The position numbers were made by a program, and so were the translations under genes. The notes beneath the pieces are model-generated. The model saw only the letters and a program-made list of their open reading frames with translations. It was not told the origin of the DNA and did no database searches. This document shows, piece after piece, positions 1 to 64,000 of a stretch of 64,000 bases of DNA. The DNA is from Nymphaea colorata. Taxonomy: Eukaryota > Streptophyta > Magnoliopsida > Nymphaeales > Nymphaeaceae. The DNA lies in assembly GCF_008831285.2 (NCBI RefSeq), contig NW_022204764.1, positions 1 through 64,000 of the forward strand, in the 5' to 3' direction. Each line of letters starts with the position of its first letter. Position 1 is the first letter of the stretch.

Positions 1-95
1 CCAACCCAACCCCAACCCCAACCCCAACCCCAACCCCAACCCCAACCCCAACCCCAACCCCAACCCCAACCCCAACCCCAACCCCAACCCCAACC
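1..95. repeat. Telomere, CCCCAA repeats
   Basis: About fifteen tandem copies of the hexamer CCCCAA, with one shorter CCCAA unit at the very start, run to about base 95 and then give way to AT-rich unique DNA. C4A2 is the telomere type of oligohymenophorean ciliates such as Tetrahymena and Paramecium. It marks the left end of this window as a true macronuclear chromosome end. Confidence 0.97.
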
Positions 96-32565: not shown

Positions 32566-33484
32566 TCAATCAAGGATAAAAAAGTGCTCAATATCCTCAG
32601 CATTCGGACGCAGCAGATCGTTGAAGGTTAGCATCTTTCCAATCGCATTCTTTACCCATAAAGGCAGCGAACAAGTGATAGGCGGAACCTACTTTAGTCT
32701 TCTGAGCCATTCCTTTTCATCTGTGCTATATTTCCATGGATTCTATCCGCACACCATTCTATAGAACGTTACTCCCAGACTCCAAACATCACTCTTCGGA
32801 CTGAACCTCTTCTCCTTTATTATTTATGGGGCAATAAATTCTTCAGTTCCAACACTATAGATGGAGGTAGTTTTATCAGCATCAGTAAGACTCACAGCAA
32901 AGCCAAAATCACTTAGCTTAGCTTATCCTGAGTGAAAAAGTATGTACCGTTGTGGAGAAGAATATTTTGCGGCTTGATATCTCTATGGCAGATGGAGTTG
33001 CGATGAAGGTAGACTAGGGCGGAAATAGTTTGCCTCATGATAGGCAAAGCAATTTAAGGGGAGATAGAGCCCTACTTCTTGATGAGAGCCTATAGGGATC
33101 TAAATCAGTTAGCTATTACCCTTGGTTGCAGTACTCTAAGAAGAAATAAAGCTGGGAGTTGTTTTCTGAGTACCCATTAAATCTGATTATGTTGGGATGG
33201 TCGATTCTCTACAACAACAATGCCTCATTCCTCAAAGATTTTACATAAAACTGTCTTGCGGTTTCCTTGATCTTACTATTGTTGATTTTTTGTAAAAGTT
33301 TGGCTTTTGAGATGGCTTTGACTGCTAAAACTTCAGAAGTGGCCTTGTCCCAACAAGCGAAAACTTCGCCAAAGGTTCCCTCTCCAAGATAAATGTTCTT
33401 GATTTCATACCGATTGTCAATGATTTTGAGGGTTTCGGAAGGTCTTTAGGATCTTATCGCTTCGTTTACGCTTCTTTTCTGCAT
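32566..33484 (-). CDS. Ser/Thr protein kinase
   Basis: Reads from ATG at 33484 to TGA at 32566-32568 with two 20-nt introns (33100-33119 and 32928-32947), about 292 residues, essentially one kinase domain. Visible elements are the P-loop [13 protein letters not shown], the lysine in LAVKAISK, the hinge [30 protein letters not shown] and the activation segment [17 protein letters not shown]. The conserved Glu of APE is a TAA codon (complement of 32824-32826). [20 protein letters not shown] completes the C-lobe. All catalytic residues are present, so it should be active. The closest broad class is CAMK/STE-like and the substrate is unknown. The frame is also open upstream to an ATG at 33718, so a longer N-terminus is possible. 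Confidence 0.88.
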
Positions 33485-34026
33485 TACAACTTTTTAAAAT
33501 TATTATAAACTCTTCTTAAGCGTAATCATTTTAAAAGCTGAAGCACATAAATAATCTCGAAAAGCTATTTTTTCGTTTGAATCTACACTAACACAACAGG
33601 ATAAGCCAAAAAAGGAACATATAAATGGTGTTTTGTTTAGCTCTTTTATAATTTGTTTAGAATTATCTTCTGAATGGAATTCAAAGATAAAAGGATTGGA
33701 TGAAGTGAAGTTTGGCATCCTTAGAGTTGAACGAAAAAATATTCACTTGTATTTATCTTTTTAAATTAGGGTTTAACTTCATGAATAATTTGCTTTTCCA
33801 ACTAAACGAAGGATTTAGTAATTTTTTATGATTAAAATGCTTATTTTTCTAGCTAGAAGTAAAGATAAAGAGCCACCATAGTTTTAGCAGTATTAGTTTA
33901 CTTTTAGCTTGCATTTACATCTGCAAAACCAAAAAAAAGATAAATCTTGTATACCATAACACGAAATAATTGAGTTGTTTCTGCCACAATTTCCAAATAT
34001 GTCAAAATGAATGAAATAAGAAAAGA
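33485..34026. other. Intergenic spacer, possibly including a kinase N-terminal extension
   Basis: About 540 bp. The part from 33485 to 33718 is open in frame with the downstream kinase and begins with an ATG at 33718, so it may encode 78 extra residues. The AT-rich stretch just before 33484 instead looks like a leader. The remaining 300 bp show nothing recognisable. Confidence 0.4.
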
Positions 34027-34650
34027 TCAGCAACATTATTTTTTATTTTTACCTTTATCTTTCTTTTGTGATTACATAGTAAGTTTGGGTCCTCTTTTGC
34101 TTTTAGATTTAGATTGCTTATATATCTTTGATGCCTTTTCCGCCAAAGCCTGAAAAATCGCATTAATATTGAAGCCATTCTTTGCTGAGCAATTAAAATG
34201 CACTGCTTGATGACTTAATGCAAATAATTCCGCCTCTCGCTTGTCGACCCTCCTTGTGCTTTCAAGGTCAGATTTATTTCCTGCAATTATGAGTACGATG
34301 TCCTTCGGCGCATGCTGCTGAAGCTCTTCAATCCACCTCCTCATTTGCGAGAAGCTTTAAGTGGAAGTGATTTCATACACTACGATGGCGCCCACTGCAT
34401 CTTTATAATAGATAGGTGCAATCGAATTGAACTCTTCTTGGCCTGCAGTGTCCTAATCTAAGATATATCTTACCCAGATACATAACTTAACATCGCCGCT
34501 TTCAGTTTTGATTATCTTTTCCAAATAGCTTGCATTTATGGTAGGCTGGGTGCCTTCTTTGAATTGATTGTTTACAAACCTCATCGCAATCGAAGTTTTA
34601 CCGACTCTTCCTCCACCTAGGAGCACCATCTTCAAGGAATCTCCTTCCAT
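34027..34650 (-). CDS. Rab21-like small GTPase
   Basis: Reads from ATG at 34650 to TGA at 34027-34029 with one 21-nt intron (34453-34473) that splits the codons for W and D of WDTAGQEE. G-motifs are complete: the P-loop GGGRVGKTS, a switch I stretch TINASYLEK typical of Rab21, [26 protein letters not shown] and SAKNG. The C-terminus, read with TAA as Glu, is basic and ends KNKKECC. It thus has the two cysteines that are geranylgeranylated in Rabs, and this is lost if TAA is read as a stop. Rab21 acts on early endosomes and in phagocytosis. About 200 residues, normal for a Rab. Confidence 0.93.
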
Positions 34651-34716
34651 AAATATCAAGAATTAATACTGATAAATTAAAGAAATATTTTTTATGATTA
34701 ATTCATCAAAAAGATA

Positions 34717-35520
34717 TCATTCATCATCCTACATCTGTAGCAGCAATCCGACCTTCTTGCTGCATAGGTTTGTCAGCCGTTTCTTCAACAATAGTTAGAA
34801 GGGACTGTACTTAATCGAGCTGGCTTTAAGAAGACTGATAATTAGAATGAGCTGTTGAGAACTTGAGGCTTGATATGCACTCTCAGATAGAATGCTGAAC
34901 TTCTCACATTTGCTAATTTAAATCAATGTCCGTAATTATGAAAGCCTTTTGTTGGTATTTTAAAGACTGGTAAATCGATTGATGCAATTATGAAAGCCTA
35001 TCTTTTCATGCTTTTAGTCGCATTAGAAGCAGTATTCCTAATTTTAGTCTCCTTGGGCATATTCGTTCCCGATTTTGACGATTATACTCTTCTCTAAATG
35101 GCTTTCCTCTATCACCTCAAACATCCATGCGCCAAATCAGATGATCGAATAAATGGGCCTGCTTCGATTTCTTCAGGATTCGCGGGTGCAGATTTATAAT
35201 TAGTATACGAGGTGATTTGATTAGGAGACGTGAGGGTGCTTTTGCATGATTTTTGAGGAGTAAGAATGGGCATGAATGTTTAATCCGTCTTTGCAAGTTG
35301 GTTCAAACACTTCAATTTAATTCTGTTTATTGCCAATCGACTGCTTGCTTCCTTCTCGAGGATTAATGACTCCTCAATTTGGGCCAGCTGGTTGAAGTAT
35401 TTCGCTGACCGCACTCGGGCATGCTCGACATTATAAATAATTTCAATCAAGATCCAGAATATAAGCTATTTGAATCAGTAATGCGCCTTCTCCTTTAGAT
35501 AGAATAAAAATATTTAGCAT
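34717..35520 (-). CDS. Protein with a Cys/His cluster, function unknown
   Basis: Reads from ATG at 35520 to TGA at 34717-34719. The N-terminal third is helical (YFNQLAQIEESLILEKEASS) and the middle is Ser/Thr/Pro-rich. The C-terminal part contains CFECDEKHEKIGFHNC, which could bind one zinc ion, followed by a Leu-rich helical end. Two one-base corrections (near 35445 and 35115) join the three parts. No family is recognised. It lies divergently to the first of the STK32-like kinase genes. Confidence 0.55.
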
Positions 35521-35726
35521 GATTATAATTGTCATTTTTTCTAAATTGTCATTTTTTCCTTGATTATTTTTCCTAACTTTTCTTAAGTAGCAAAGACCAA
35601 ACAATTAAAATGATGTTTAACTTCATAATCCCTTAATAATAAAAAACTTTTTCAGCTGATTACAAATGTTTAAATACAATTGAGAGTTTTAATATTTATT
35701 ACTCAATATTACAAATTGATAGACGT

Positions 35727-37232
35727 ATGAAACTTCAGAAGCCGAAGTTACTCTATTAGCTAGGACCCACACCTACATTTAAGCCTGGAAAAGATCCAAC
35801 GGTCTCCCCTACTACAATCGCCATCAATTTCACTTTTCTATAGAAAATATTCAGGCTAAGTTGTTGATGATGCGCTTAATACCATAGCCTTCAAGCCAAA
35901 CTGAGGAATATTCGAAAATTATCATAGAAAAACGAAAGTAAAGCAGAGCATCTCACGGAATTAGAGAAGATAGTTTTAAGCAGAGAGTATATTTTAAGAA
36001 AAAAACTTCTATAAGCCAACACCTCACGGCCCACCAAAAATGCTAGATATCAACAAAAAAATAGACCGATTCAAGGAAGAAATATGGATAGGAAATCTCA
36101 TACGGGAGTACAGCGAAGATTACGAGTAATTATATCTGCACCCGAATGCAAATAGTTTCGCCCACCTAATGACGATAGGAAAAGGAGGCTTTGGTAGAGT
36201 ATGGAAGGTTGTCGAAATACGCTCAAGGAGGATATTTGCGATGAAAGTCATGCGAAAATCAACAATTTTAAAAAAACAATCGACCTGTCAGTAATGAATG
36301 AAAGATTACTGCTAGCAAAATTAAGCATCCTTTTTTGGTAAACATGAAATATGCCTTTCAAGATGAAGATCGGCTCTATCTCGTTATGGATTACTGTAAC
36401 AGAGGAGATCTACGCTATCATCTCATCGGAATGCCAGGTTCCAAGAACACTAAACACGCTTCTTCTTGGCTTGCATTATACTTGCATATAGTATATGCAT
36501 TTTATGAATATTATTCACCGTGACCTGAAGCCATAAAATCTTGTATTAGATGATAAAGGCTATGTAAAGATCATGGACTTGGGGATTTCTCGACAATTGA
36601 CTCCTGATAATAGAAATGACACGAGTGGGACTCCAGGGTATATGGCTCCTGAGGTCCTTTTGAGAAGAAATCATTCTTATTATGTTGACTTTTATGCACT
36701 TGGAGTGATTGGCTTCGAGTTTATGATCGGCAAGGTATTCTTGATTTAGATAGAGACCATATATAGGAAAAGATCGTTAAGAGCTAAAGCAAAAAATCAT
36801 TGCGAAACAAGTTCAATTGACAAGTATCCCTGAAGGATGGAGTAGAGATAGTGTTGATCTGATAAACAAGCTTATTCAGCGAAGGCCCTAGGATCGGCTT
36901 GGATTCAATGGAATTGAATAGATTAAAGCTCATCCTTTCTTCAAGAACGTTGACTGGGGGTTATTGCATCAGAGAAAAATAGTAAGTCCTTTCATTCCAA
37001 AAGTATACATTAAGTGATATAGACAATCGAGAAAGATTTTCGAAACTACCAAAACGGTATCCCTGACGCTACATGTGTCTAAAATGGCAGCTAGAACGCG
37101 CTGGATTGCGGGTCTGATGAAGCAAGCACAGCGTTTAAGGGATATGAATATGATGGAAACTGGGCAATATTACAGAAAATCGTCATTGTGCATAATAACC
37201 AGACCAGAAAGGCAAAATCATTTATAAAATGA
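35727..37232 (+). CDS. STK32-like (AGC-group) protein kinase, copy 1
   Basis: Starts at ATG 35727 and ends at TGA 37230-37232. A variable N-terminal region of about 150 residues is followed by a kinase domain: [80 protein letters not shown] (DLG in place of DFG), [15 protein letters not shown] and IGFEFMIGKRPYIG. The Glu of KPEN is the TAA codon at 36534-36536, where copy 2 has GAA. Introns of 19 nt (GTATTCTTGATTTAGATAG) and 20 nt (GTATACATTAAGTGATATAG) are clear. The family character (RDLRYHL, GKRPY) fits the STK32/YANK branch of AGC kinases. Short indels near 36290-36325 and 36500 interrupt the frame. It sits in tandem with a close paralogue. Confidence 0.82.
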
Positions 37233-52200: not shown

Positions 52201-53868
52201 TCATTTGAGGGCGGCAACGAGTTCATTCAAGGAGATTTTGTTATCGTTAGACTTGTTAATCACTGTAAACAGCTCACTTATTTCTTCTTCGGAAATGTTG
52301 AAATTCAGTTTGGTTCTGATAAACTTGGCAAACTCTTCAAAATCAAGCTGGCGGTTGCCATCGCTATCAGCCATCTTAATGATGGTTTAAGGGCTGATGT
52401 TCATCCACTTGATGTAACCGACCAACTGACTTAGATTACGAGCAGCACGCTCCTTTTGGAATGTATGAATAGTGGGAGGTTGCTTGTGGGAAGGCATCCT
52501 TACGGTAAGGAACTCCAAAAATTCTTGCTTAGAAATCAGGCCGTTTTTGTCATTATCGAAAAGGCGGAAAATTTGAAGCACTTATTCTTTAGTATAGCAA
52601 GGAGCAATTGTAACAATGAACTTAGAGAATTCGGCGAAGTCCAAAGATCCACTATGGTTGGCATCGATTTGTTCAAAAATCTTGAGGGGATCGGCTTTTT
52701 GGGCCCTTAAGATGGCCACAACTTCATCGATTTTGCGAGACAATACATCTTCTGAGCTTCGGTAGTCTACTTGAAGGAGATTCTTGTCGATAACTGACCA
52801 ACTAATAACTCCTGTTTTCCCACTCTCCAGACTGTCCAGGTAGTTGAAAAGAGTCGAGGATTCGTGAGTTGTGATGAGAGGATTGATTTCCTTGAGGACA
52901 GAAAAGAAAACTCGCTGATCAATAATTTGTTGAGAATACTTAGTCTTGAGTTGTGGCCAATTGATGTTGTATTTTATGATATAAGTCTGCAGTTGGATTA
53001 GCATTTTCTTTGTGTAGGGGTCGACTTTGACTTCTTTAACTTCAGATCCAACCTCCTTCTGTTTAATCAATGGGTGTTCAAAGACTTGCTCCCATGACAT
53101 CCTCTTGTCTTAATCAATGACTAAACTTTTCAAAAGGAAGTCTTTGGTGTTCTATCCGATCTTAGCGTTGTAAGGGAAGCTCAAAGACTTATGATAGATT
53201 CCGCTGAGATATTCTTCCAAGCTACGACAAGGCCAAGGGGCATATCCGAAGATCATTTCATAAAGCATGAGGCCCAGACTCCATATGTCTGATTTGGCTG
53301 TATAGGGTTCGTTTTTCAGCAACTGTGGAGCCATGTAAATGGGAGTTCCGCAAATATCGGTGAGCTTCTTTCGACCTAGGATATCTGCTTTGCATGCGAA
53401 ACCGAAATCAGCGACCTTATAGTGATGATTCTTGACGAGTGTGTTTGCCGGTTTTATATCACGATGGATGTAACCTTTGTGAACGAGGACATTGAAGCCC
53501 ATCATGATCTCCTCGAAGATAGCCACACATTCTGGTTCAGTAAATTTGCGTGAGGCAAGTTCTTTACGCAAGTCGGTATCGCAGAGCTCGAGGATCATGT
53601 ATGTATAATTTTTTCCGATCTTAGCGTCTAGCATCTTGACTGTGTGGTCAGAGTTGACATCCATGGTAATCTGAATTTCGCCTTTGAGAGAGGCCATAAG
53701 GGTGGGATCTTGATTGAACTCTTCCATTCTCATCTGCTTGATGGCATAAAATTGTCCGTCTTGGAGGCTCTTGACCTTGAAGACTCTTCCGTAGCTGCCC
53801 TCTCCGAGGAAAATTTTATTTTTCCAATCAAACTTGTCGCCAAAAGGAAACTCTTCGTTTGCTTCCAT
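52201..53868 (-). CDS. ULK-like protein kinase fused to four EF-hands
   Basis: A clean, intronless frame of 555 residues from ATG at 53868 to TGA at 52201-52203. Residues about 1-270 form a kinase domain: FLGEGSYGRVFKV, FYAIKQMRM, HRDIKPANTLVKN, VADFGFACKA, CGTPIYMAPQLLKNEPY (Q instead of the usual E, as in ULK/unc-51 kinases) and DIWSLGLMLYEMIFGYAPW. After a linker come EF-hand loops: DANHSGSLDFAE and DNDKNGLISKQE (both canonical), DSDGNRQLDFEE, and a weaker NKSNDNKISLNE. The layout is that of a calcium-dependent protein kinase, but the catalytic domain looks ULK-like rather than CaMK-like. Calcium would be expected to regulate activity directly. Confidence 0.92.
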
Positions 53869-54142
53869 CAAGATATGATAAACTTCTAACTATTATTAGT
53901 AAAACTAATATTCCTTGTTTTAAATAAAAAAAAATTTACGGAAACTTCAAAAGGTTCTACAATAGGCTGGTAAAGTTGTTCAAAATCTTCTTAAGATTTA
54001 TTGGCATTTAGTTCGATTACTTATTCAAGGATATATTCAACCCACAATGGTTATTTGATTCGAAGGATATGGCGCATAAATAATCAGGAATATGATGGTT
54101 TGGTAACTACTTTGATTGAATCAGGATATATTATTTACATTT

Positions 54143-57134
54143 ATGAACCTTGATATTTTTGATTCCACAAGGCATTGGAGTTACTCTGCTGACGACGAGC
54201 TCGCAGAAGTTGAGTTTTCATCATTCGAGAAAGAGGCACGTGAAATTCTTCCAAAGAACTTCTTCGATCGTACGTTTTCCCTCACATAGGTAGCGCCTTA
54301 CTCGGACTATCTTTTATGAAAAGCACTAGACTGTACAAGGCTCTAAAAACTCTTCCCAAGGGAGTCTTACATAACGTGTTCTTCGATTGCTGTGAAGATG
54401 TTGAGTTTGTAAGGTTTTATTTACTTAGTACCGCAATCACGTCGTGGGGGATCAAAATGTATATGTCACTGAGGATTTTGACAGTTTTAGAATCGGTACC
54501 AAGGAAGAGGCCTTGAGATATAACTGGGTATCCATGGAGAAGGGGCGCAAGATGTACAAAAAAGAGGAGGATTTCTTGGCAGCCATTTCTAAAATAACAA
54601 TTTTCGACACAGAAGAGCTAAAGACAGTCTGTAGAGGCAAGGATAATGAAGCATGGAACCTTTTCGAAAAAAAAAGTTCGAACTCCACTGTGTTGATATA
54701 CTCCAGACACCTCTTCACTGCATATGTGAAGCATATGTTACGCAAATTTATTCGGAACGGCTACCAACGTATTGAATTCCGAGCAGAATTACTAAAACTC
54801 TCCCTATACGATGCCCATGGAAAGTTCATCTGCAAATTACCAGAAAACGAGTTCGCTGTAGCCTTCGATGAGGCATTTGCAGAAATTGAAAAGGAGTCTC
54901 CTCATTTTACAGTCGGGTTTATCTTTTGCATACGCAAGTCTTGGAGTGAGCAAGAGATTGAGTAACATTTGGAAAAAATCTGTGAGTTAAATTGGGCAAG
55001 AACTGTTGGAATTGACTTTGTACAAGAGGAGGATCGGTACGGAAGCTTGTAGAGATATGACCGCATTTTGGAAAAGGTTCTAGCTAAGCACACAGATGTG
55101 AGACTATGGAAAGTTTATCACGCAGGCGAAACTAAAAATCATTTATCTCGTAATATTGAGTAGGCAGTGGTTGCAGGAAGTGTTCGCATAGGCCATGGCC
55201 TCAATATTTTGCAGAGAGTGGAGTTCCTTCCTTTTTGCAAGCACATTTGCTTTGAAAAATGCCCTATTTCTAACCTTTTGCTCGGCTATACTGGTGACCC
55301 TCGTGAATCCTCGGCTCCCATTTTACTTGGTCTTGGCTATGCAGTAAGTATCAACATCGGTGATGCTGGAAAGTTCGGAGTTGATGACGGCACTGCTGAC
55401 TTCTTTGTCTCATCAGTCTCATATGATTGGACTCTAAAGCATTTAAAGCTGGTTGCCCTGCATTCGATCAATCATGCACTATGCAAAGACCGGCAGCGTA
55501 GATATATTTTGAAGAAATTTAACTAAAATTGGAATGCTTGGGTGACTGAATTCCTTCATGGCACTCATCGCGATAACCATTAACGCATTCGCAGACTCGA
55601 TATCTTTACAAGCACTAACAACTGGAAGTACACCAAAGAAGATGAGCTGGCGTAAGAAAAGTTTTAAGAGGTCCGTCGCCGTTAAATTGCCAAGCTTCCC
55701 GAAGATTTCTTTCACAGTACTATTTTTGGCATATAGAAACCACGCTCACGCATCTTTAGCATATCCGAAGTAGTGAACTTTATTAGTTCCTTAAGGATAT
55801 CCGAAGGGTGTTCTGCATCATGATCATTTCGACTGTAATGAAGATGAAGATTTCGTAAGCCATTTCTAATAAAGTATCGCGAACATATCATTACTGATCC
55901 GAACATTTATCTGGCAGCCGACAGGAAATCATTCAAAATTGGCCCAGCAGAACAAGCACAAAAGGAAGGATGGGTGAGCTTTAAACAGTTAGCTGATGAG
56001 CTGCCTAACCAAAGGAAGGTCGTCAAGTTTGTGTCTAATTTGACAATGTTATCAAGAGAGGAATTGCTTGTAGTTTCTGGAAATCAACATGAATTCTGGG
56101 TTCTTTTTGAGGAAAAGATATGCAACTTCTTCATTTTGGTCTTCGCCCTTCACGTCTTTAAGAAATATGTGAGACATGTTCTTCTCAAGTATATCAAGAA
56201 CGGATACTAACGTGTAGAGTTCCGCGCACTGCTTTGCCAACTTGCAGAATATGATGATAAGGGGAACTTCGTGAAAAATCATGATGAAGGCATGTACATG
56301 CAAGCCTTTGACGAGGTTTATAATCAAGTCATTCAAGATCATCCCTCATTTAGCGCTTCTTTCATCTTCTTTGGACTGAAGGCCTTGAGTGAAGAGAAAA
56401 ACTTCTAAATGCTCGACAAAGCATGCTCTTACGAGTGGCCAAGAATGGTTGGCATTGATTTTGTCCAACAAGAAGATCCTTATGGCTCAATGGAACCTTA
56501 CATTCGTGTGGGAGACAAGATCGTGAAAAAATGGGCTCACCTTGATCTCAAGAAAGTTTACCATGCTGGAGAAACTAAAGATCACCTTAACAGCAATGTT
56601 GAGCTGTCTGTCAGATCAGGTAGTGTGCGAATTGGGCATGGACTAAATATCGTCAAGCGAATTTAATATCTTAACCAATGTCGTCACATCTGCTTTGAGC
56701 TAAACCCGATCTCCAACCTACTTACTGGTGGTATGACTGACATCCGTATGTCAACTGCGCCCCTTCTGTTGGGATTAGGATATGCTGTCTCTATAAGCTC
56801 AGACGATCCTGGAAAATTCGGCTATGAAGACACCACAGTTGATTATTTCGCATCTACAGTTTCCTTCAACTGGAGCCTTAGACATCTGAAGCTGATTGCT
56901 TATCACTCTATCAATCACGCTATCGTTACTGAGGGCGATCGCATCAAGATCTTGGAGTCATTCGAAGCTAAATGGACTAGCTGGATTAATCGACTCTTGG
57001 AACGCGAACTCAGGGAAGGAGCTCAATGGCCAAAGAGAGTTGGTGCTCCTTACGATGAGGAGTCAAAATATGAAGAAACTTTAGCCCGAAGAGCCCCAAT
57101 TTTCGCTTCCAGAGTTAACAGCATTGAAGAATGA
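54143..57134 (+). CDS. Double-domain adenosine deaminase (ADGF/ADA2 type), first domain degenerate
   Basis: Begins at ATG 54143 (MNLDIFDSTRHWSYS). Two ADA-type domains of about 470 residues follow each other without a TGA between them; the second begins near 55590 with the homologous LDIFTSTNNWKYT and has no start codon of its own. Domain 2 has the complete metal site: HDH (55819-55827), YHAGE, IGHG and SSDDPGKF. Domain 1 keeps YHAGE and IGHG but has NVF in place of HxH (54373-54381) and NIGDAG in place of SSDDPG, losing three zinc ligands. Active family members deaminate adenosine to inosine. The protein ends at TGA 57132-57134 after about 990 residues. No signal peptide is obvious. One-base shifts near 54316, 54430 and 55797 are needed. 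Confidence 0.82.
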
Positions 57135-60023: not shown

Positions 60024-62571
60024 ATGCGAATCATGTCATCTAAGCCTATAGAAAAAAACAGTGATCGTTCAGAATACTCGTATCCTTCTCCTCGTATGAA
60101 TCACTGCTCAGTCTTCTACAAAGGAAAGATATACGTTTGGGGTGGCATCACTTCAGAGGTTGAGCCAAAATCTAACCCTTTATTCCTCCACATTTACGAA
60201 ATCGACTCGAAGAAATGGAAGCGGGTATGGACCAAAACAACATGCAAGGATCTTGATTCTTTCTCAGGACAGTGCCACGCAATCATCAATAACCGATGGT
60301 ACTTATTCGGCGGGGTCGGCAAGGATGATGAATACATTTCAGATTTGTGGAGATTCAACCTTGATTCAATAGAGTGGGTTAAATGTGATCAAAAAGGCGA
60401 ACAGCCAAGTCCATCAGAAGGAGGCCGACTTATTGCAGTCTAGAAAAACTGGCTTCTTCATTTTGAAGGATTCAACTCACGTAGCACAGTAAGCAAGCAT
60501 TATGCTTTCTTTATACAATCGACACTAAATCGTGGCATCGCTGTGAGGGAAACTATGAGTATTCACTTAAGTTTCGTCTTGGGACTGCTCTCTGTGTTCA
60601 CAATGGTCGAATTTTCATGTTCGGTGGGGCATACCAATCAGGTGAAAAGCTCCAGTACCTAAACGATATGTACGAGCTGATAGTTCAACTTCCCACCAGA
60701 GTTAGCAAGGCAAGGCTTGATATTAGAGTGATAAGTAAGTCATCCCATCTTCCTCCCCGATGCGATCATTCTCTTTTTCATTAAATAGGGACTATCTCTG
60801 CCTGCTGGAGGTCATAATGAAGATTAGTTTTTCACAGACTATGGATTTACAATATGAAAACCTAGCTATGGATCGCAAACCCTTCATATCACTTTTCAGC
60901 ATTGAAGCGGATTGGTTTCTCTTTCGCAATTTCAAATGGAGAATTCTTTTTATTTGGAGGGCTTACTAAACATGAAAATGGAAGATGTAGTTGATGAATG
61001 ACCTTTGGTCTGTGAAGGTAGGATTGGATAGTCTGAACTATAATGAGGAAGAAAATGAAATCACTGAATCTTCTTATAATTATGCATGCTGCCTTTGCTA
61101 CGAGAAACGAAAAAACTTTGTATTTGCTTGTAAACCATTTTCAAGCCAATCAATAAATGACTTTAAGTAAACTATTGAATATCCTTTTGCTGCTTTCGGA
61201 TTATTAATTGATAACTCTCTCATGCTAGGAGCTACTGAGATAATGGTTCAGTTCGATAAGGATTCTCATGGCTTATACTATATAAAAGTTGAAGATAACG
61301 GTAAACCAAACTGGGAGTAGTAGGAATTTTTGTCAAGCATGGTCTCTTTCTGCAGCCAAAACCAACTTATGCTGGTGGGGTCTGATAAAAAGGTCAAGAG
61401 AAGCATCATAAGGAGCAACCAAGCGAAATAATATGGAGTAAACCTTAAACTAGGCTGTTTGAGGCTGGGAAAGCGCTTTTTGACTGTTTCTTATTTTGGA
61501 TAATTGCTTCGAGTGCATCTTTTTTATGAGGAGAGTGGAAGTGATGAAAATGAAGGCCGCTAGTACTTTATGCGCTATTATGTTTTTGATGAAAAAACGA
61601 AAAAACTAGTTGATCCAGGCATGAGTAGTAATCAATAATTTATTGACCATGAATACTGGAAGTATGTCAGATAAGTCTTGGCAGGTAAAATTTACAAAAA
61701 TGTTGTATACATCTTTGATACCATCATTGACGATGAAGATCAAGAGCTCAAATGCAAAGTAGAGCTTAATGATTTATTTTTGGAAACACTGAAGATATTG
61801 AAAAGCTTAAAAGGCACGGATATTGCATAAATGACTCAATCGACATCTCTCTTAAGGCCTACTTATCAGCTTTGTATCTGAAAAATGACTACTTTTCAAT
61901 CAACATCGGCTTTGGAAACACCTTGACAAACATAAATTTGCAATATTCACTCTAGCAGATTGATCGCTTGTGCAAAACAGGAAACGCAATTGAGCTGGAT
62001 GGAGTAGTATAGTTTGATTTCAAGTTCGCAGAATTCTACTATCTAAGGAAATTCCTCACAATAGTAACTTTTGTTTAATTTAGAAACAAACCATCGCTTT
62101 TTTAGCAATGGGATGCTACTTTATTACAAAAATCGGCTTATTTGCCGCCATAGGCCACCTTTGGGATAAATGGTTCCTATCTTCTCACTTAAAATTGAGT
62201 ACAGATTGCATACCAATTTTTGGATTCGCCTAGTTACCATAGAATGTGCCCCACAATGCATCAAAAACAGTATTTTATTTATTATGTAGGCCTTTAACTT
62301 TACCATTATGCTGGAAAAGATGCTTTCCCGCCTTAATTTCGTCTAAGAAAGCTTCAGGAGCAGAAGCTCTTAGTTCTTACCAATGTCTACACTTCCGCAC
62401 CCAAAGGCGAGGATATAAGAACCTGAATATCCAGATCCTGCTGTCCAAAAGAGAAAGTCTTTACTCGAAAACAATGAATAAAAAGGAATCAAAAAACGAT
62501 ATTTTGAACGCAACTATGATGAGCCACGAAAAAGAACGAAAAGAGAGTAAATATATAAAATATTATAGTGA
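60024..62571 (+). CDS. Kelch propeller fused to a MORC-like GHKL ATPase domain
   Basis: From ATG 60024 (a second ATG at 60033 is possible) six kelch-type blades follow: YKGKIYVWGG, NNRWYLFGGV, a degenerate third, HNGRIFMFGGA, YLCLLGGH and SNGEFFLFGGL, the last closing with MNDLWSVKV. The frame then runs into a GHKL domain of MORC type: YPFAAFGLLIDNSLMLGATE (motif I), YYIKVEDNGKP (motif II), EYGVNLKLGCLRLGKRF (motif III), ISLKAYLSALYL and GMLLYYKNRLI. A basic Lys/Arg/Glu tail ends at TGA 62569-62571. MORC proteins are chromatin-compacting ATPases and kelch propellers bind proteins. The catalytic Glu of motif I is Leu (61201-61203) and DxGxG is DNGKP, so ATP hydrolysis is doubtful. Several one-base corrections in T runs are needed, including the one at about 60992 that joins the two parts. 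Confidence 0.8.
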
Positions 62572-63735: not shown

Positions 63736-64000
63736 ATGGTTTCCGCCTTTTCTGTGCCGAAAGCAAAAAGAGGTCCTCATTCATTGATTTAGACGAAAAA
63801 ATCCCAGACAATCCTGGTCCTGGGCAGTACAAGTATCTCCCTTTTTATGCAGCCCATAAAACAGCCCCAAAATCGTCAAGAGCACTGACCCACTTTACAG
63901 GTATATGGTTTAACTAAGGAAGCTTCGGAAAGGATATCCGTCGAGATGAGAAATCAAACAATCCAGGACCAGGAGCCTACGAGCCAAAAGAATCTCTTGT
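63736..64000 (+). CDS. SHIPPO-repeat (ODF3-like) axonemal protein, cut by the window end
   Basis: A start at ATG 63736 (MVSAFSVPKAK) is followed, after a one-base shift in an A run near 63768, by FIDLDEKIPDNPGPGQYKYL. An 18-nt intron (GTATATGGTTTAACTAAG, about 63900-63917) joins TGSFGKDIRRDE and SNNPGPGAYEPKESL. PGPGxY is the core of the SHIPPO/STPGR repeat of outer-dense-fibre-like proteins, which line the inside of axonemal microtubules in cilia. The repeat array continues beyond base 64000, so the gene is partial here. Confidence 0.85.

Follow-up and report, generated by a model that had tools for sequence, protein, structure and literature searches.

Apicomplexan MORC proteins, including that of Plasmodium, combine kelch motifs with a GHKL ATPase in the passages found (PMC7820235, PMC6693557, PMC7440042, PMC11483127, PMC12891473), and in PfMORC the kelch part is described as N-terminal to the GHKL domain (PMC7820235, PMC7440042). 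In addition to the kelch repeats, excerpts on apicomplexan MORC mention a CW zinc finger (PMC11483127, PMC11620747), and a passage on Plasmodium MORC, there given as kelch plus GHKL, links it to ApiAP2 proteins, EELM2 and HDAC1 (PMC6693557). The retrieved part of one paper calls the N-terminal kelch propeller apparently unique to apicomplexan MORC and says that PfMORC is without an S5 domain (PMC7440042); that of another treats apicomplexan morc as a single gene and invokes the domain architecture for parasite-specific roles (PMC11483127). An earlier note on the DNA analysed here held that no kelch-MORC fusion had been described, a statement that these passages overturn (PMC7440042, PMC7820235, PMC6693557). 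The fusion is already known, in the passages found from Apicomplexa only; what is new is its occurrence in a ciliate and the shared loss of a catalytic residue. A literature search for ciliate, alveolate or chromerid MORC returned no paper on a ciliate MORC as judged by titles and abstract openings, and the MORC match in the retrieved part of PMC12399478 was an author's name. The words "kelch" and "ciliate" do not occur in the text of Iyer 2008 (PMC2292703), and a remark on kelch could not be traced there.

Results

Origin of the contig

The window, the stretch of 64,000 nucleotides analysed here, comprises positions 1-64000 of contig C265 (65,404 bases; 64.0 of 65.4 kb covered), which belongs to a 408-Mb assembly made up of 783 contigs. 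CCCCAA telomere repeats cap C265 on the left and on the right. The MORC genes on the large contigs C2 (36 Mb), C7, C9 and C14 are split into exons and use the standard code, and we take them to be of plant type. Because CCCCAA repeats stand at both ends of C265 and the large contigs bear standard-code, intron-containing MORC genes, the window is very probably one ciliate macronuclear chromosome that was co-sequenced with a plant-like organism. The ciliate origin suspected earlier is supported. The same repeat is also found on at least eight other small contigs (C19, C22, C23, C32, C34, C35, C45 and C47), at both low and high coordinates in six of the eight, and the assembly may therefore contain a large part of a ciliate macronuclear genome; the backward control of this repeat search is the identical repeat and is therefore uninformative.

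Genetic code

TAA and TAG are decoded as an amino acid. The best conserved locus with such codons is a tubulin gene on C497 (L020); opposite its seven TAA or TAG codons, the tubulin of C438, which is free of these codons and served as the reference, has Glu six times and Ser once. At four more diverged tubulin-like loci, Glu stands opposite 4 of 10, 8 of 19, 4 of 9 and 1 of 4 such codons and Gln opposite 0, 2, 1 and 0, respectively, the second and third of these loci (both on C38) opening with the same series and so not being independent. Between the two kelch-MORC proteins described below, Glu is found at 8 and Gln at 3 of 35 positions opposite TAA or TAG codons. TAA and TAG therefore probably encode Glu, matching NCBI table 30 (the peritrich code), on the assumption that C265 shares the code of C497; the genes of C265 themselves do not decide, with Pfam scores under the Gln and the Glu reading of 51.1 and 50.5 for A_deaminase, 155.7 and 157.5 for a kinase and 188.5 and 188.7 for a second kinase, and no Pfam family under either reading for a fourth window protein. 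Translation with Gln (code 6), which was the earlier reading, is probably wrong, and we dropped it as the main one since the tubulin favours Glu, even though the Pfam scores of window genes cannot discriminate. A literature search on the peritrich code found no paper.

A kelch propeller joined to a GHKL module

Joining the open pieces across 60024-62571 on the plus strand yields a protein of 850 residues, the features of which are collected in Table 1.

Table 1. Features of the kelch-MORC locus and of the contig end (window coordinates).
Feature	Position	Strand	Basis
CCCCAA telomere repeats, left end	10..93	+	repeat search; right end (65.4 kb of C265) outside window
Kelch blades 1-3, initial open piece starting at ATG	60024..60506	+	PF24681, E 3.4e-23
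Remainder of six-bladed kelch region, four pieces due to frame changes	60509..60991	+	pieces 60512-60781 and 60821-60988 match kelch families
End of last blade, linker, GHKL domain and start of next domain, one open frame	60991..61779	+	translation; HATPase_c_3 (PF13589), E 0.0011 on uninterrupted piece 60985-61878
GHKL motif I AAFGLLIDNS, Leu (TTA) replacing catalytic Glu	61189..61218	+	codons; alignment to AFAELLDNA of plant-type MORC
DxGxG motif VEDNGKPNW, second Gly replaced by Pro	61288..61314	+	aligned with VEDDGGGM of joined exons of plant-type gene
Motif III GVNLKLGCLRLGKRFLTVSY	61435..61494	+	best position for plant block GNGFKTSTMRLG; weak MORC2 match, E 1.3
S5-like domain (Morc6_S5), one internal frame change	61848..62145	+	PF17942, E 0.011, under cut-off
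KNRLI element	62128..62142	+	translation; block scan
Basic tail KKRYFERNYDEPRKRTKRE, resembling a nuclear localisation signal by eye	62491..62547	+	translation only
TGA stop	62569..62571	+	translation

The frame-joined protein matches the kelch model PF24681 at 5.1e-52 over three stretches, and visual inspection shows six blade signatures (VWGG, LFGG, HFEG, MFGG, LLGG and LFGG). This model, of KLHDC2/KLHL20/DRC7-type kelch proteins, scores best for the propeller half; these families are not known to carry a GHKL module. Downstream, HATPase_c_3 is followed by Morc6_S5, with respective E values of 0.0069 and 0.11 for the 850-residue protein (Gln reading), 0.0033 and 0.024 for a 526-residue version (Gln) and 0.0013 and 0.011 for a 509-residue version (Glu), all of them under the curated cut-offs (at best 19.4 of 25 bits for the GHKL and 16.3 of 26.2 bits for the S5 match). 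Other weak Pfam matches in the open pieces are to COMP (0.06) and E1_UFD (0.16), and Pfam scans with an E limit of 1, covering both kelch-MORC proteins except for the last piece of the second one, showed no zf-CW. The propeller thus lies N-terminal to a MORC-like GHKL domain, as in apicomplexan kelch-MORC, and motif I, DxGxG, motif III and KNRLI follow one another in MORC order, both as the earlier note had proposed.

That note's mention of a corrected protein implied a broken frame, and seven frame changes are indeed found within 2.5 kb (near 60507, 60776, 60807, 60842, 60991, 61779 and 62103). Six go one way and one the opposite way, and six of the seven, the exception being that near 60842, fall at runs of two to six equal bases. 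Since the last blade, the linker and the GHKL domain share a single frame, the fusion stands without a single frame correction. Two HSP90 genes on similar contigs (L041 on C513 and L042 on C536) show at least two frame changes each over about 1.5 kb by tblastn, a count that uses four of seven tblastn rows and leaves out three overlapping ones from other frames, and in which gaps may be introns. Frame breaks therefore do not single out the kelch-MORC gene, and an assembly error is likelier than decay. These HSP90 genes warn that erroneous small insertions or deletions may be numerous in the contig set.

A second locus with the same domain order

A second gene (L009) lies on the minus strand of contig C614 at 32980-35871; this contig is 37,245 bases long and ends in the CCCCAA telomere repeat at its high end. 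With the GHKL-S5 half of the window protein as query, seven matches were obtained, of which three were to itself, two to C614 (1.9e-13 and 0.012) and two, both weak, to C10 (0.064) and C8 (0.29). The reverse search from C614 gave 12, three of them to itself and three to C265 (kelch 6.6e-15, GHKL 0.0024 and S5 0.077), while the other six match the kelch part of C614 only (the best, on C10, at 3.6e-6); searches in both directions used the Gln reading. An uninterrupted frame of 380 residues, in which six blades can be made out by eye, encodes the kelch part of the C614 protein, and GHKL, S5 and KNRLI follow, in the order seen in the window gene. Pfam matches this protein at 1.9e-41 for kelch, 0.00049 for HATPase_c_3, under the cut-off as in the window protein, and 0.071 for Morc6_S5, likewise below its curated cut-off; the weakly matched, putative S5 domain of both proteins has the position and order expected for MORC. 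Just after motif III the C614 protein also matches MED6 (PF04934, E 0.00066), under the cut-off although better than its own S5 match, and further matches below cut-off are to Rrp15p (0.025) and DUF1176 (0.067).

Aligned with the window protein, the C614 protein is identical at 218 of 744 positions (29%), or at 233 of 799 when a further C614 piece is included. Three frame changes, near 34665, 33850 and 33190 and all in the same direction, interrupt the C614 gene, and the similarity between the two loci continues across the frame breaks. Because the second locus repeats the domain order, chance or a chimera is very unlikely as the source of the fusion.

Degenerate ATPase motifs

Motif I reads AFGLLIDNS in the window protein and AFGLLVDNS in that of C614, compared with AFAELLDNA in the gene on C2, which retains the Glu. 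The catalytic Glu is therefore Leu in both proteins, which counts against an active MORC ATPase and not against MORC descent. This Leu is not a single read error or a misread TAA, since the codons differ (TTA in the window, CTC in C614). Neither protein has both glycines of DxGxG, which reads DNGKP in the window and DNGST in C614, although both still have the Asp of DxG and, in motif I, the Asp-Asn pair. The two substitutions noticed earlier, Glu to Leu in motif I and the second Gly to Pro in DxGxG, are borne out, and both losses recur in C614. That the Glu is lost in both copies argues for a conserved form that does not hydrolyse ATP, and the window protein, as far as its sequence tells, is probably a MORC conserved in a hydrolysis-dead state. 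In the C614 protein, DxGxG and motif III are separated by a charged low-complexity insertion, which spans 73 residues when aligned and lies at the expected place of the ATP lid.

Strength of the MORC assignment

Four blocks, for motif I, motif III, S5 and NRLI, were taken from plant-type MORC and slid along both proteins, and each of the eight scans reported its best position at the expected place, with MORC order kept and KNRLI where plant MORC has it; the blocks were picked after the resemblance had been seen, ties are possible and the two proteins do not count as independent cases. Out of 5000 shuffles, those that scored equally well numbered 2638, 260, 1124 and 173 for the four blocks in the window protein and 314, 60, 48 and 200 in that of C614. 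A fifth, C-terminal MORC block landed in the kelch region of both proteins. Comparison by hhalign of the protein pair with the joined plant-type exons gave a score of 27.1, a probability of 5.4% and an E value of 0.0072, pairing motif I and DxG; one of 100 column shuffles scored above the real pair, and the proteins taken singly gave E values of 0.047 and 0.4.

A two-protein profile, searched up to an E value of 1, matched no solved structure, and in a single-sequence search of the same kind MORC2 occupied the fourth to sixth of six rows. An AlphaFold2 model of the 263-residue open piece had a mean pLDDT of 35.2 and was uninformative. Across the assembly, HATPase_c_3 gave six matches, two of which were on small contigs (C513 and C536) and were HSP90 by eye, and Morc6_S5 gave 12, on C2, C7, C9 and C14. 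Both searches missed the two kelch-MORC genes, and so neither shows that a canonical ciliate MORC is absent. In a pattern search, no match was confirmed among 301 in the viral and 64 in the genome contig collection. The GHKL, S5 and KNRLI blocks nevertheless stand in the order of the plant-type genes and of animal MORC (MORC2 in the PDB), and although the ciliate proteins have strongly diverged from the plant type, MORC descent of the second half is likely.

Discussion

We favour, at a probability of about 0.6, the reading that this gene encodes a ciliate kelch-MORC, with a six-bladed propeller, a divergent GHKL domain, an S5-like domain with KNRLI and a basic tail, that would act as a nuclear scaffold, probably without hydrolysing ATP. 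The domain order is conserved at two loci, and both copies have lost the catalytic Glu. Compared with published descriptions of PfMORC (PF3D7_1468100) and PbMORC, it is likewise an alveolate combination of kelch and GHKL, with the kelch part first as in PfMORC. It differs in that the ciliate-bearing assembly has two copies, whereas apicomplexan morc is called a single gene in the passages found (PMC11483127), in that no CW zinc finger was detected in the window and C614 proteins, whereas the apicomplexan protein is described with one, and in that an S5-like domain is weakly detectable, whereas the retrieved part of PMC7440042 says that PfMORC is without it. The loss of the catalytic Glu in the ciliate proteins may be a further difference.

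Several other readings have to be weighed against this one. The second half could belong to another GHKL-S5 branch (SMCHD1-, Hsp90-, MutL-like or lineage-specific) to which kelch was joined independently of apicomplexan MORC. PF13589 is named for several GHKL groups, the Morc6_S5 scores are weak and the profile finds no MORC structure, all of which would fit such an origin. However, HATPase_c_3 is followed by Morc6_S5 in both proteins, the KNRLI and K-x-G-x-x-R-x-G blocks lie at the places of plant MORC, and kelch followed by GHKL is the PfMORC order, and we therefore consider another branch unlikely. It is quite unlikely, too, that ATP is still hydrolysed through another acidic residue, by a MORC clamp that functions despite an unusual pocket. 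Such a clamp could make use of the retained Asp-Asn of motif I and Asp of DxG, but the Glu position is Leu in both proteins and the presumed lid region from DxGxG to motif III is altered, in C614 by the charged insertion.

The broken frame together with the lost catalytic residues could also be taken as the decay of a pseudogene, and the seven frame changes in 2.5 kb would fit this. Nevertheless, the HSP90 genes of C513 and C536 break frame as well (with introns possible for some of the breaks), the direction of the changes and their location at equal-base runs are each shared by six of the seven, and C614, to which the similarity spans the breaks, shows both motif losses too. We therefore rejected decay, which appears improbable. 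That two adjacent genes, one for kelch and one for GHKL, only seem fused is hardly credible: a frame change does fall inside the last kelch blade at 60991, near the junction, but the junction itself is a single open frame and C614 repeats the domain order, and this reading was rejected on both grounds.

If the gene is a kelch-MORC as we propose, the propeller would bind or recruit partner proteins, and the GHKL-S5 part would pair and may hold DNA or a partner copy, clamping or compacting DNA without an ATP cycle; lacking the motif I Glu, such a clamp would not be driven through its cycle by hydrolysis. We infer this ATP behaviour and dimerisation, as well as a nuclear location and repression. 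The role is proposed by analogy with apicomplexan MORC: the scaffold may repress genes or mark chromatin as that protein does. On the same analogy, a role in chromatin or RNA silencing and in macronuclear genome processing is plausible. A ciliate kelch-MORC, if true, would place the origin of the fusion nearer to the alveolate ancestor and provide a harmless system for studying the task of the propeller, and the conserved loss of the catalytic Glu would suggest that ATP hydrolysis is not needed for a MORC to be retained. More tentatively, and with considerable doubt, kelch-MORC might be an ancient alveolate chromatin protein that predates the split of ciliates and apicomplexans, was duplicated here and is now a catalytically dead scaffold serving a life with two nuclei, by which chromatin of the developing macronucleus would be silenced or sorted.

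Other features of the window

Rfam and tRNA scans of the window gave no match. Upstream of the kelch-MORC gene lies a tandem pair of adenosine-deaminase-like genes (54444-57134, plus strand), the first of which (54444-55823) matches PF00962 at 1.4e-13, while the second (55974-57134, plus strand) is alike by eye. On the minus strand, 52201-53871 is a single open frame for a protein kinase with EF hands, of the calcium-dependent kinase type. Finally, 63760-64000 holds the start of a gene with PGPG repeats that resembles, by eye, PG-rich proteins of the sperm tail or axoneme.
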